Shown here: positions 49,409 to 53,081 of the stretch, piece after piece | Position numbering within the stretch: position 1 is the first letter of the stretch | Layout: every line of letters begins with the position of its first letter | The notes under the pieces: model-generated | Seen by the model: only the letters and a program-made list of their open reading frames with translations | Told to the model about the DNA's origin: nothing | Databases searched by the model: none | Assembly (NCBI RefSeq): GCF_005403045.1 | Contig: NZ_BJCL01000001.1 | Location: 186,001 to 250,000 of the forward strand | From: Pseudaquabacterium pictum | GTDB taxonomy: Bacteria; Pseudomonadota; Gammaproteobacteria; Burkholderiales; Burkholderiaceae_C | Length of the DNA: 64,000 nt | Reading direction: 5' to 3' | Program-made: the position numbers and the translations under genes

Positions 49409-49422
49409 GACAACTTGTCGCA
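49409..49422. promoter_or_regulatory. Operator candidate site 1 (GACAA-N2-TGTC)
   Basis: GACAACTTGTCGCA has the core GACA-ACT-TGTC in the 201-bp gap between the divergent fdh operon and the NtrC-like regulator. It shares 13 of 14 bases with the site at 53068-53081. It lies 31 bp (about three turns) from site 2 at 49440, as expected for cooperative binding of dimers. Confidence 0.6.
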
Positions 49423-49425
49423 CGC

Positions 49426-49443
49426 TGTCCAGTCGGCTGGACA
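49426..49443. promoter_or_regulatory. Inverted repeat TGTCCAG-N4-CTGGACA
   Basis: Perfect 7-bp arms (49426-49432 and 49437-49443) around TCGG. The right arm overlaps operator candidate site 2. It may be part of the same regulatory cluster or bind a different factor. Confidence 0.45.
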
Positions 49444-49450
49444 AACTGTC
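49440..49450. promoter_or_regulatory. Operator candidate site 2 (GACAA-N2-TGTC)
   Basis: GACAAACTGTC, a palindrome with GACA/TGTC arms, overlaps the predicted -35 region of the regulator gene (candidate -10 TACAAT at 49468-49473). Sites 1 and 2 are 31 bp apart. Confidence 0.6.
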
Positions 49451-49493: not shown

Positions 49494-50939
49494 ATGCCCG
49501 ACACCGCCGATCCCAGCCTGCAGCCCGCCACCGCCCCGCGCGAACACTGGCCGCTGGCCGCGGTGCTGGTGGTCGACGATGAGCCCGGCATGCGCCACTT
49601 CCTGGAGAAGACGCTGCAGCCGCGGGTGGGCCAGGTGCACAGCGCCGCCTCGGCCGAAGCGGCGGACGACCTGGTGCGCCGCCACCGCTACGACCTGGTG
49701 GTGCTGGACATCGCCTTGCCAGGCATCAGCGGCATCAGCTGGCTGAAGGCACTGCGCGAGCGCGGCTTCGATGGCGAGGTGGTGCTGATCACCGCCTTCG
49801 CCGACCTGGACACCGCCATCGAGGCGCTGCGCGCCGGCGCCAGCGACTTCATCCTCAAGCCCTTCCGGGTGACGCAGATCCTCAATGCGCTGCGCCAGGG
49901 CCTGGAGCGGGCCGGCCTGCGGCGCGAGAACTGGGTGCTGCGCCGGGCGCTGCACCAGGCCACGCCCGCGGCCGATGGCCTGGTGGGTGACTCCATCGCC
50001 ATCAAGGGCCTGCAGGCCGCGCTGCAGCGGGTGGCGGCGGTCGACAGCATCGTGCTGCTGACCGGTGAATCGGGCACCGGCAAGGAACTGGCCGCACTGG
50101 CCCTGCACCACAACAGCCCGCGCGCGGCCGGGCCCTTCGTGCCGGTGAACTGCGCCACGCTGTCGCCCGAGCTGATCGACAGCGAGCTGTTCGGCCAGGC
50201 GCAGATCACCGGCAGCACGCCCGGCAGCGGTCGGCCGGGGCGCGACGGCCTGTTCGTCTATGCCCAGGGCGGCACGCTGTTCCTCGACGAGATCGGCGAG
50301 CTGCCGCCGGCCCAGCAGGCCACGCTGCTGCGGGTGCTGGAGGAGCGGCGCATCCGCCCGGTGGGCAGCGAGCAGGAGATCCCGGTGGATGTGCGCATCG
50401 TCGCCGCCACCCACCGCAAGCTGGCCGACGAGGTGGAGGCCGGCCGCTTCCGCAAGGACCTGTACTACCGCCTGCAGGTGGTCGAGATCAACCTGCCGCC
50501 GCTGCGCGCGCACAAGGAGGACATGGCCGCGCTGGTGGCGCATTTCATCGCCACGCTGGCACCGCGCCTGGGCGTGCCGCCGATCACCGTGACCGACGAC
50601 GAGCTGCGCTACCTGCAGCAGTACGACTGGCCCGGCAATGTGCGCGAGCTGCGCAACCTGATCGAGCGCTCGCTGATCCTGGGGGCGCTGAATGTGTCGG
50701 CGCTGTACCAGGGCCTGGCCCGGCAGGACCGCCGGCAGGAGGCCGGCGCGCCGCGCACGGCAGCTGCTGCCGGCACCACCGCGCTGCCCGCCACCACCGA
50801 CCTGCACACGCTGGAGAAGCAGCACATCCTGGCGGTGCTCGACAGCGTGGGCGGCGACAAGACCCGCGCTGCGCAGCTGCTGGGCATCTCCCGCCGCACG
50901 CTGGAGCGCCGCGTGGCCGAGTGGGGCCAGGGCGGGTGA
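49494..50939 (+). CDS. NtrC-family response regulator lacking GAFTGA loop
   Basis: 481 residues. Receiver domain with acidic pocket Asp28/Asp29, phospho-acceptor Asp72 (LVVLDIALPG) and Lys122 (FILKPF). AAA+ domain with Walker A GESGTGKE (191-198), Walker [14 protein letters not shown] (from 260), second region VDVRIVAATHRKL and YDWPGNVRELRNLIERS. A Fis-type helix-turn-helix ends it (DKTRAAQLLGISRRTLERRVAEW). The loop between ELFG (231-234) and GLF (252) reads QAQITGSTPGSGRPGRD instead of the sigma-54-contacting GAFTGA. It probably acts at sigma-70 promoters, as do HupR-like proteins. It is divergent from the fdh operon, and the downstream kinase start overlaps its stop (GTGA). Confidence 0.94.
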   Translation: MPDTADPSLQPATAPREHWPLAAVLVVDDEPGMRHFLEKTLQPRVGQVHSAASAEAADDLVRRHRYDLVVLDIALPGISGISWLKALRERGFDGEVVLITAFADLDTAIEALRAGASDFILKPFRVTQILNALRQGLERAGLRRENWVLRRALHQATPAADGLVGDSIAIKGLQAALQRVAAVDSIVLLTGESGTGKELAALALHHNSPRAAGPFVPVNCATLSPELIDSELFGQAQITGSTPGSGRPGRDGLFVYAQGGTLFLDEIGELPPAQQATLLRVLEERRIRPVGSEQEIPVDVRIVAATHRKLADEVEAGRFRKDLYYRLQVVEINLPPLRAHKEDMAALVAHFIATLAPRLGVPPITVTDDELRYLQQYDWPGNVRELRNLIERSLILGALNVSALYQGLARQDRRQEAGAPRTAAAAGTTALPATTDLHTLEKQHILAVLDSVGGDKTRAAQLLGISRRTLERRVAEWGQGG

Positions 50940-53032
50940 ACAGCCACCGTGGCCCGCCGGCGGGGGCCCGCTTCGCGCAGTGGCCCATCCGCCGCAAGCT
51001 GCTGGCGATGGTGCTGCTGCCGCTGCTGGGCGTGCTGCCGCTGCTGGGTGTGGTGCTGCTGGTCTGGGGCAATGCGGCGCTGGACCGGTTGCTGATCACC
51101 AAGGTGCGCTCCGATCTGGCCGTGGCCCACGGCTACTTCGAGCGGGTGCAGGGCGAGGTGGCGGCCAGCACCCGGGCGGTGGCCGATTCCCAGGCCCTGC
51201 ATGCCGCGCTGAACGGCCCGGGCGCGCTGGACGCGGCGCAGCTGCGCCCGCTGCTGCTGCGCTTCCAGCAACGCGAGGGGCTGGACTTCATCAACCTGCG
51301 CAGCGCCGACGGCCGCCTGCTGGCCGCCGACGTGGACGGCGCCACGCTGGCCGCTGGCGTGGCAGCGCCGCTGCCGGTGGCGCACGCGGCGGACGGCCGC
51401 CGCGCCGTGGCCACCGTGGCCGTGCTGTCCCCGGCGCAGCAGGGCCTGCTGGCACCGGCACTGCGGGCGCGGGTGGCCGTGCCCCTGGTGGCCACCCGCA
51501 ATGCCCAGCCCACGCAGCGCAGCCATGAGGACCGGGCCATGGTGCTGCAGGCCAGCGCGCCGGTGCACGATGCCGCCGGCCGCCTGCTGGCCTGGGTGCA
51601 GGCCGGCGTGCTGCTGAACCAGAACCTGCCGTTCATCGACCACATCAACGCCATCGTCTACCCCGACGGCGCACTGCCCTTCGGCAGCCGCGGCACGGCC
51701 ACGCTGTTCCTCGACGATGTGCGCATCTCCACCAACGTGCGGCTGTTCGATGCGGAGGGCGCCGCCGCCGGCGGCCAGCGCGCCATCGGCACCCGGGTGT
51801 CGATGGCGGTGCGCGACGCGGTGCTGGGCCGCGGCAGCACCTGGCTGGACCGCGCCTTCGTCGTCAACGACTGGTATGTCTCGGCCTATGCCCCACTGGC
51901 CGATGCCGGCGGCCAGCGGGTGGGCATGCTCTACGTCGGCTACCTGGAGCGGCCCTTCACCTGGCTGAAGTACGGCGTGCTGGCCGGCATCGGCGCGGTG
52001 TTCTTCGCGGTGATGATCGCCGCGGCGCTGTGGTCGGCCCGCTGGGCGCGGCAGATCTTCCGGCCGCTGGAGCAGATGGCCCAGACCATGGCCGACGTGG
52101 AGGGCGGCGCGCTGCAGGCGCGGGTGGGCCCGGTGCCGGGCGGCGACGAGATCGGTGCGCTGGCCGGCCACCTGGACCACCTGCTCGACACCATCGCCGA
52201 CAAGACCGCCGCGCTGCAGCGCTGGAATGCCGAGCTGGACGCCAAGGTGGCCCAGCGCACCGAGGCACTGGAAGGCCGCACCCGCGAGCTGCAGGCCGCG
52301 CAGAGCCAGCTGCTGCGCGCCGAGAAGATGGCTGCCGTGGGCCAGCTCACCGCCAGCATCGCCCACGAGGTGAACAACCCGATCGCGGTGATCCAGGGCA
52401 ACCTCGACCTGGTGCGTGAACTGCTGGGTGCGCATGCACGGCCGGTGGCCGACGAGCTGAACCTGGTCGACCAGCAGATCGAGCGCATGCGGCTGATCGT
52501 CACCCAGCTGCTGCAGTTCGCCCGGCCGAACGAATACGCCGGCTATGTCGAGGTGGTGGACCCGCAGCGCACGCTGGAGGATTGCCTGGTGCTCACCGGC
52601 CACCTGCTGGCGCGCAGCAGCATCACCATCGACCGCCGCTACCAGGCCAGCCGCGCCGCCGGCATCAACCGCCAGGAGCTGCAGCAGGTGCTGGTGAACC
52701 TGATGGTCAACGCCATCCACGCCATGCCCGGGGGCGGCACGCTGACGCTGGCCACGCAGGACTGGACCGATGCCCAAGGCCGGCCCGGCGTCGCCATCGC
52801 CGTGGCCGACACCGGCCCCGGCCTGGCCGACGAGCTGCTGCGCGAGCTGTTCCAGCCCTTCGTCACCCGCAAGAAGGACGGCACCGGCCTGGGCCTGTGG
52901 ATCAGCCGCAGCCTGGTGGAGCGCTATGGCGGTGACATCACCGCCGGCAACCGCCCGGCCGCCGAGGGCGCCGGCGCGGTGCTGACGGTGCTGCTGCTGA
53001 CCGAGCCCGAGCCGGCGGCCGGCAGCTCCTGA
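50936..53032 (+). CDS. Cache-domain sensor histidine kinase paired with the regulator
   Basis: 698 residues from a GTG that overlaps the regulator stop (GTGA). A first helix (LLAMVLLPLLGVLPLLGVVLLVW), a large periplasmic cache-type sensor region (about 55-340), a second helix (YGVLAGIGAVFFAVMIAAALWSA), a HAMP-like segment, a coiled coil, then HisKA with His477 in SIAHEVNNPIAVIQGNL and HATPase (NLMVNAIHAMPGGG, DTGPGLAD, GTGLGLWISRSLVERYGG). The NtrB/DctB-like dimerisation region fits an NtrC-type partner. It should sense a periplasmic or membrane-derived signal, possibly formate or redox state, and phosphorylate the regulator encoded just upstream. Confidence 0.94.
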   Translation: MNSHRGPPAGARFAQWPIRRKLLAMVLLPLLGVLPLLGVVLLVWGNAALDRLLITKVRSDLAVAHGYFERVQGEVAASTRAVADSQALHAALNGPGALDAAQLRPLLLRFQQREGLDFINLRSADGRLLAADVDGATLAAGVAAPLPVAHAADGRRAVATVAVLSPAQQGLLAPALRARVAVPLVATRNAQPTQRSHEDRAMVLQASAPVHDAAGRLLAWVQAGVLLNQNLPFIDHINAIVYPDGALPFGSRGTATLFLDDVRISTNVRLFDAEGAAAGGQRAIGTRVSMAVRDAVLGRGSTWLDRAFVVNDWYVSAYAPLADAGGQRVGMLYVGYLERPFTWLKYGVLAGIGAVFFAVMIAAALWSARWARQIFRPLEQMAQTMADVEGGALQARVGPVPGGDEIGALAGHLDHLLDTIADKTAALQRWNAELDAKVAQRTEALEGRTRELQAAQSQLLRAEKMAAVGQLTASIAHEVNNPIAVIQGNLDLVRELLGAHARPVADELNLVDQQIERMRLIVTQLLQFARPNEYAGYVEVVDPQRTLEDCLVLTGHLLARSSITIDRRYQASRAAGINRQELQQVLVNLMVNAIHAMPGGGTLTLATQDWTDAQGRPGVAIAVADTGPGLADELLRELFQPFVTRKKDGTGLGLWISRSLVERYGGDITAGNRPAAEGAGAVLTVLLLTEPEPAAGSS

Positions 53033-53064
53033 CAAACCCTGGGGCATGGCCTCCGGCGGCCGGA

Positions 53065-53081
53065 TGCGACAACCTGTCGCA
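53065..53081. promoter_or_regulatory. Operator candidate site 3 (TGCGACA-N3-TGTCGCA)
   Basis: TGCGACAACCTGTCGCA is a perfect palindrome with 7-bp arms, 26 bp before the DUF3305 start and over the predicted -35 region (candidate -10 TAGACT at 53093-53098). It contains the GACAA-N2-TGTC core of the two sites upstream of the regulator gene. Confidence 0.68.

Follow-up and report, generated by a model that had tools for sequence, protein, structure and literature searches.

NtrC relatives that lack GAFTGA and act with sigma-70 are already known. TyrR, DhaR, HupR and VpsR are relatives of the sigma-54 activators with an altered GAFTGA, and the accessible parts of two sources describe them as sigma-70 dependent or sigma-54 independent (PMC3162934, PMC10274813). 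The NtrC proteins of Rhodobacter capsulatus and Caulobacter belong to the same group; in the accessible part of PMC10274813, ATP binding rather than hydrolysis is reported as needed for the former, and the Walker residues are reported as needed for the latter. Conversions of a sigma-54 activator into a sigma-70 regulator are otherwise known from scattered, distant examples. Here we describe a 64,000-nt stretch of the Pseudaquabacterium pictum genome (contig NZ_BJCL01000001.1, positions 186,001 to 250,000; “the window”), in which a GAFTGA-less NtrC-type regulator lies beside a divergent operon for an FDH3-type formate dehydrogenase (fdh operon). From comparisons with its orthologs, we consider it likely that this regulator has given up sigma-54 looping and activates a sigma-70 promoter in a class-I-like manner.

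Palindromic sites, regulator loop and fdh promoter

The plus-strand regulator gene (49494..50939) and the minus-strand fdh operon, whose first gene starts at 49292, are separated by a region of 202 bp that holds two palindromic sites. Site 1 (49409..49419, no strand) is the perfect 11-bp palindrome GACAACTTGTC, and site 2 (49440..49450, no strand), GACAAACTGTC, lies 31 bp from it. A third site (53068..53078, no strand), GACAACCTGTC, is found upstream of the DUF3305 operon, inside TGCGACA-N3-TGTCGCA (53065-53081). A preliminary description of the locus had listed these copies of GACAA-N2-TGTC, the third near 53065, and all are present. It had called the 17-mer around the third copy a perfect palindrome, which is incorrect, as perfect 7-bp arms flank a 3-nt centre and only 14 of the 17 positions are self-complementary. 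It had correctly assigned the copies to the regions upstream of the regulator and of the DUF3305 operon, but had overlooked that sites 1 and 2 also front the divergent fdh operon.

The pattern GACAANNTGTC (GACA-N3-TGTC) has four strand matches in the 64 kb, i.e. the three sites at 49409-49419, 49440-49450 and 53068-53078, compared with a chance mean of 0.17; none of 100 shuffled controls reached four. All three sites are intergenic. At the rate seen across the genome, any given stretch of 3,673 bp would hold three or more sites with a probability of about 9e-7. Over the whole 6.1-Mb genome, the bare 11-mer shows no enrichment (32 strand matches at 29 distinct sites versus 43 for the reversed control), and a genome-wide regulon defined by it was rejected. 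With up to three mismatches, the 17-mer consensus occurs at 17 places genome-wide; its reversed control gave 131 per strand. Only two places differ from it by at most one mismatch, site 3 and a copy on contig C4 (G000:C4:365286-365302; L128 near 3290), which lies directly upstream of an apparent hybrid sensor histidine kinase gene. At three other genome sites (contigs C15, C21 and C31), no formate-related gene was recognised by reading the open reading frames, without a family-library search of those frames.

The related-locus search used the best 80 of 508 confirmed loci. Regulator orthologs with at least 50% identity comprised 98 entries, which gave 88 different proteins after subtraction of the window copy and nine identical proteins; two with short upstream DNA were excluded from sigma-54 scoring and dyad ranking, leaving 86 loci. 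Within 300 bp upstream of the regulators, GACA-N3-TGTC ranks first of 3,328 palindromic dyads (56 of 86 loci), and the next unrelated dyads reach 20 and 16 of 86 loci. The consensus upstream of the orthologous regulators is TGCGACAANTTGTCGCA-like. The motif is conserved at orthologous promoters, the point on which the preliminary description had staked its proposal. The spacing of three helical turns that it reported for the first two copies is also real: partner sites usually stand two turns apart (21-23 bp), and three turns (31-32 bp) are also seen, as in the window. In a whole-locus scan, 85 of 92 sites were intergenic and seven lay inside genes. The gene nearest to the intergenic sites was the regulator in 61 cases, DUF3305 in nine, FdhA in eight, the twin-arginine translocation (TAT) target gene in six, and FdhC in one.

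The window regulator consists of a receiver domain, an AAA+ domain of the sigma-54-activator family, and a Fis-type helix-turn-helix (HTH), an NtrC-type set with matches to PF00072, PF00158, PF25601 and PF02954, all above the cut-off. Its L1 loop is replaced, and the phospho-acceptor Asp, Walker A and B, and Arg fingers are kept. The ortholog alignment confirmed the earlier statement that GAFTGA is absent. GAFTGA or GAYTGA is present in orthologs of Rhodocyclaceae, Caldimonas, Azohydromonas lata and australica, several Hydrogenophaga, and some Curvibacter, indicating that the motif was lost inside the ortholog family and is not missing from the family as a whole. The 86 orthologs comprise 28 with an intact, 14 with a point-altered and 44 with a replaced loop, and the site is found within 300 bp upstream of the regulator in 18, 14 and 24 of these, respectively.

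We calculated a regulator tree from which the loop columns were excluded, with Shimodaira–Hasegawa-like approximate likelihood ratio (SH-aLRT) support from a quick method. The window falls into a clade of 41 proteins (SH-aLRT 99) that is nested among GAFTGA-bearing orthologs. Loops are replaced in 40 of the 41 members and vary freely in length and letters; the remaining member, L040, has GAFAGA together with a sigma-70-type promoter. Five replaced loops lie outside the clade (L066, L070, L090, L091 and L097). The loop state changes at least eight times on the tree, showing that loops were lost repeatedly, and the window's clade itself has one origin.

The clade shows the combination found in GAFTGA-less regulators, i.e. 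loss of the L1 loop with retention of receiver and ATP-site residues. All 41 members keep the residues that we take to be the phospho-acceptor (Asp72), Walker A Lys (Lys197), Walker B Asp (Asp265), Arg fingers (Arg320 and Arg326), and the sensor II Arg. The Walker B Glu is kept in 38 of 41, and the presumed sensor I Asn in 22 of 41 (His307 in the window) versus 28 of 28 intact-loop orthologs. This pattern suggests that ATP binding and assembly still matter in the clade, and that hydrolysis is less constrained.

Toward fdh, the window reads GACAAGTTGTC, 25 nt, TTGCCG, 17 nt, CCTAAT. The hexamers are the predicted minus-strand -35 (49378..49383) and -10 (49355..49360) elements of the fdh operon, placing the putative transcription start near 49348. 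Because site 1 lies 25 nt upstream of TTGCCG-N17-CCTAAT on the minus strand, its centre is at about -66, as would befit the activator site of this promoter; that of site 2 is at about -97. Promoter matches, i.e. at least 7 of 12 letters at an offset of 24 or 25 nt from the site, were found in 20 of 21 loci of the window's clade versus one of 26 outside it, and the background at other offsets has a mean of 0.125 of the 21 clade loci. Class I activation demands a fixed distance to the promoter, with jumps of about one helical turn allowed. In the clade, distance and phase between the activator-type site and the -35/-10 elements downstream of it are constant, as at class I promoters. In four of four clade loci beside an FDH-N-type enzyme, GATAAC (a TAA-type -10) is found at the same position, about one helical turn farther out than in the FDH3 promoters. 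In Rhodocyclaceae and some Rubrivivax, the regulator family adjoins this other formate dehydrogenase, of FDH-N type (L100, L104, L106, L108; L059, L064, L065, L072).

For sigma-54, the comparison covered the 41 loci with a divergent FDH3 operon and a site, FDH-N loci and loci without divergent fdh lying outside it. A -24/-12 call required a score of at least 12 and p <0.05 against Markov shuffles, with an approximate matrix written from general knowledge (consensus 17.8). Such promoters were found toward fdh in 10 of 13 intact-loop loci versus none of 15 clade loci. No -24/-12 element was found in the window, where the best scores on this approximate scale are 1.4 toward fdh, 5.5 toward the regulator and 8.0 upstream of DUF3305. 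Where the site lies upstream of -24, as it does in 15 loci (L096 is an exception), the two are between 86 and 192 bp apart, as looping allows. Intergenic regions are mostly 383-491 bp long in intact-loop loci (733 and 741 bp in two Azohydromonas) versus 163-288 bp in clade loci with a TAT neighbour. Sigma-54 has not been lost from the window's genome, because two matches to its DNA-binding domain (PF04552) were found, in frames of 498 and 191 aa.

These comparisons are consistent with the following mechanism. Regulator and kinase would form a two-component system dedicated to formate dehydrogenase, with formate or a related small acid as a possible signal. Dimers would bind TGCGACAANTTGTCGCA-like palindromes with the Fis-type HTH, usually at pairs two or three helical turns apart. 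The window's lineage would have abandoned sigma-54, with the L1 loop replaced and the -24/-12 promoter of fdh gone, and ATP binding may have been kept for assembly. The site 24-25 nt upstream of the -35/-10 elements would be placed as for a class I activator in direct contact with RNA polymerase, possibly at the C-terminal domain of the alpha subunit. The regulator probably acts at the DUF3305 maturation operon as well, where the site would replace the -35 element; its own promoter may be a further target. On balance, we favour the view that the activation mechanism was exchanged within one orthologous family, from a DNA-looping sigma-54 enhancer-binding regulator to a direct class I sigma-70 activator. 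Binding sequence, kinase and target would have been kept. The L1 loop and the promoter would have changed, with intergenic DNA shrinking to about half; point-altered orthologs (GAFPGA, GAFAGA), together with L040, would be intermediates.

The DUF3305 operon and the regulator's own promoter

The sensor histidine kinase gene (50933..53032, plus strand) encodes an sCache_3-type sensor, HAMP, HisKA and HATPase domains. The DUF3305 operon, on the same strand, begins with the DUF3305 gene (53108..53587) and continues with genes for a DUF3306 protein (53596-54192), a polyferredoxin-like protein (54044-56341) and a TorD-like chaperone (56338-56988). On the minus strand, the first gene of the fdh operon (49071..49292) encodes a formate dehydrogenase region TAT-target protein (TIGR02811, 39.8 bits, below the cut-off of 48.45). 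The alpha subunit FdhA (46069..49053) was recognised by profile matches, and the cytochrome b gamma subunit FdhC (44013..45164) by TIGR01583, above the cut-off. The beta subunit FdhB (45414..46046) scores 336.6 bits with the FDH3 equivalog model NF038355 (cut-off 240), identifying the enzyme as FDH3.

The candidate -10 boxes of the preliminary description, TACAAT for the regulator gene (49468..49473, plus strand) and TAGACT for the DUF3305 operon (53093..53098, plus strand), are present and recur in relatives. TACAAT is kept in 10 of 11 aligned intergenic regions, and TAGACT stands next to a site in six DUF3305 upstream regions including that of the window. The gap between site and TAGACT is 14 bp in four of these, as between site 3 and its box, 13 bp in one and 17 bp in one; the other six of the 12 upstream regions do not have this arrangement. 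So little DNA separates the predicted DUF3305 -10 from the ATG (53093-53108) that the leader would be just a few bases long, and the true start codon may be downstream.

One site over each -35 region had also been proposed, and this holds for DUF3305, in six of 12 regions, but not for the regulator promoter. In the window genome, the regulator promoter does have site 2 over its -35 region, 17 bp from the -10. However, this distance is 10, 13, 14, 14 and 44 bp in L043, L039, L050, L057 and L062, and a site covering the regulator -35 as a general rule was rejected. Self-control of the regulator is thus possible, but is not supported as a rule, since the distance is not kept. Of the overall proposal, a dedicated fdh regulator acting through GACAA-N2-TGTC at sigma-70-type promoters, the core survives, as the motif is conserved and tracks the regulator; the main target, the divergent fdh promoter, had been missed, and there is no fixed geometry at the regulator's own promoter. 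In Curvibacter-like loci (L015-L016, L067, L069, L075-L077, L081, L087, L088 and L094), a conserved ACCCGA-N8-CTCGG-like stretch precedes a TAGAAT box of the regulator gene; it was not seen in the window's relatives.

A site that replaces the -35 element suits activation of the PhoB type. At site 3, activation of this kind or repression would both fit. It is nevertheless improbable that the regulator binds its sites as a repressor or anti-repressor, blocking RNA polymerase over the -35 region, with fdh under other control. Six DUF3305 upstream regions have a site 3-type site across the -35 region, with 13-17 bp to the -10; this position would agree with repression, as would similar ones at the regulator promoter in L039, L050 and L057. 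In contrast, the fdh site lies 24-25 nt upstream of the -35, clear of RNA polymerase, and this offset is kept.

Site and regulator across genomes

Among 120 relatives, FDH3 operons of genomes that have a regulator ortholog were set against those of genomes that have none, with up to 600 bp upstream scanned. From 23 regulator-free FDH3 regions, 22 were scored (L191 has no FdhA; L185 provided only 307 bp), and G007, G013 and G084 (contigs end) were left out of the comparison; G002 is partial. A site was found in one of the 22 regulator-free operons, a weak one at 16 bp from the start codon, versus eight of 12 operons of regulator-bearing genomes (p = 2e-4, uncorrected for kinship). The eight comprise five of six linked operons (within 600 bp) and three of six unlinked ones. 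G095, the linked operon without a site within 600 bp, shares its promoter match with L044, where the sites stand farther off, at about 620 bp. In G012, regulator and fdh are on different contigs, yet the fdh promoter has a site and TTGCCT-N18-GCTAAT in the usual position.

These values bear on whether another transcription factor owns GACAA-N-TTGTC, with the regulator merely a neighbour. The bare 11-mer occurs at 29 genome places, and the pairing of site and regulator is itself read from sequence. However, the absence of the site from 21 of 22 operons of regulator-free genomes, the retained promoter geometry of the unlinked G012 operon, and the centring of sites on the regulator's own upstream region make such a factor very improbable. 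Slightly less probable still is continued use of sigma-54 through an atypical L1 loop, which would agree with the kept Walker and Arg-finger residues and with the -24/-12 promoters of GAFPGA/GAFSGA orthologs, but not with the lack of such promoters toward fdh in all 15 clade loci, the free length and letters of the clade loops, or the best DUF3305 upstream score of 8.0 of 17.8 in the window.

Several results weigh against a switch from sigma-54 looping to class-I-like activation. Three of the six unlinked regulator-bearing genomes, with distant orthologs (53-59% identity), have no site at FDH3, and no site is found within 300 bp of the regulator in 20 of 44 replaced-loop loci. L053 falls below the promoter score threshold (its -10 is still correctly placed), and L047, L198, L199 and L200 pass only narrowly. 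Site 3 is centred near -32, which could mean repression. Independent-pair coevolution tests show no significant link, a single clade origin giving such tests no power. Outside the clade, six of 13 point-altered loci (GAFPGA, GAFSGA and SSKGA forms) and L097, with a replaced loop (14.8 bits), have a -24/-12 promoter, and three of 13 intact-loop loci (Curvibacter-like) have none. Inside the clade, sigma-54-like matches occur at the FDH-N loci L059 and L072 (11.2 and 11.8) and upstream of the site in L198 (13.0 bits), with positions at odds with the FDH3 pattern. Loss of GAFTGA and change of promoter are therefore not strictly coupled. Finally, L190, the FDH3 operon of the regulator-free genome G087, has a 14.4-bit -24/-12 match, and another sigma-54 activator may serve it.

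Strong -24/-12 promoters upstream of fdh are retained with the GAFPGA/GAFSGA orthologs L078, L080, L094, L095 and L096. In contrast, Pro at that position is classed as non-functional in the accessible part of PMC3162934.

Comparison with known systems

The new part is the series within one ortholog family that includes both promoter types. For orthologs of one regulator, with the same DNA word and the same operon, both arrangements occur in neighbouring genera, together with apparent intermediates, and it therefore becomes directly testable whether loop or promoter changed first, and what role is left to the AAA+ domain after the loss of sigma-54 contact. In addition, our literature search found no regulator for FDH3 formate dehydrogenase and its DUF3305/DUF3306 partners, and the locus supplies a predicted regulator, site and promoter for them. 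That search, whose coverage excluded most subscription journals, turned up no account of the present regulator, nor of an exchange of this kind among orthologs. FdhR belongs to an NAD-linked enzyme, according to the accessible part of PMC5023235.

The window protein resembles FhlA of Escherichia coli, which is likewise presented, in the source parts available, as a sigma-54-activator-family regulator of formate metabolism. In contrast to FhlA, it is a two-component response regulator without GAFTGA, and it scores 203.8 bits with the NCBIfam FhlA model (cut-off 830). FhlA has no receiver domain. With class I sigma-70 activators such as CRP at lac, the locus shares a site centre near the -60s, a fixed helical phase and jumps of about one turn; CRP belongs to a different protein family, and the contact with RNA polymerase is a proposal here. 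TyrR, DhaR, HupR and VpsR differ in their signals, targets and, mostly, N-terminal domains. The GAFTGA-less NtrC proteins of R. capsulatus and Caulobacter share the receiver-AAA+-HTH architecture, the deleted GAFTGA stretch of L1, the kept ATP-site residues and the sigma-70 promoters, as reported in the accessible part of PMC10274813. In contrast to their role in nitrogen control, the regulator described here is associated with formate dehydrogenase and belongs to another ortholog family, with GAFTGA-bearing orthologs and -24/-12 promoters in sister genera.

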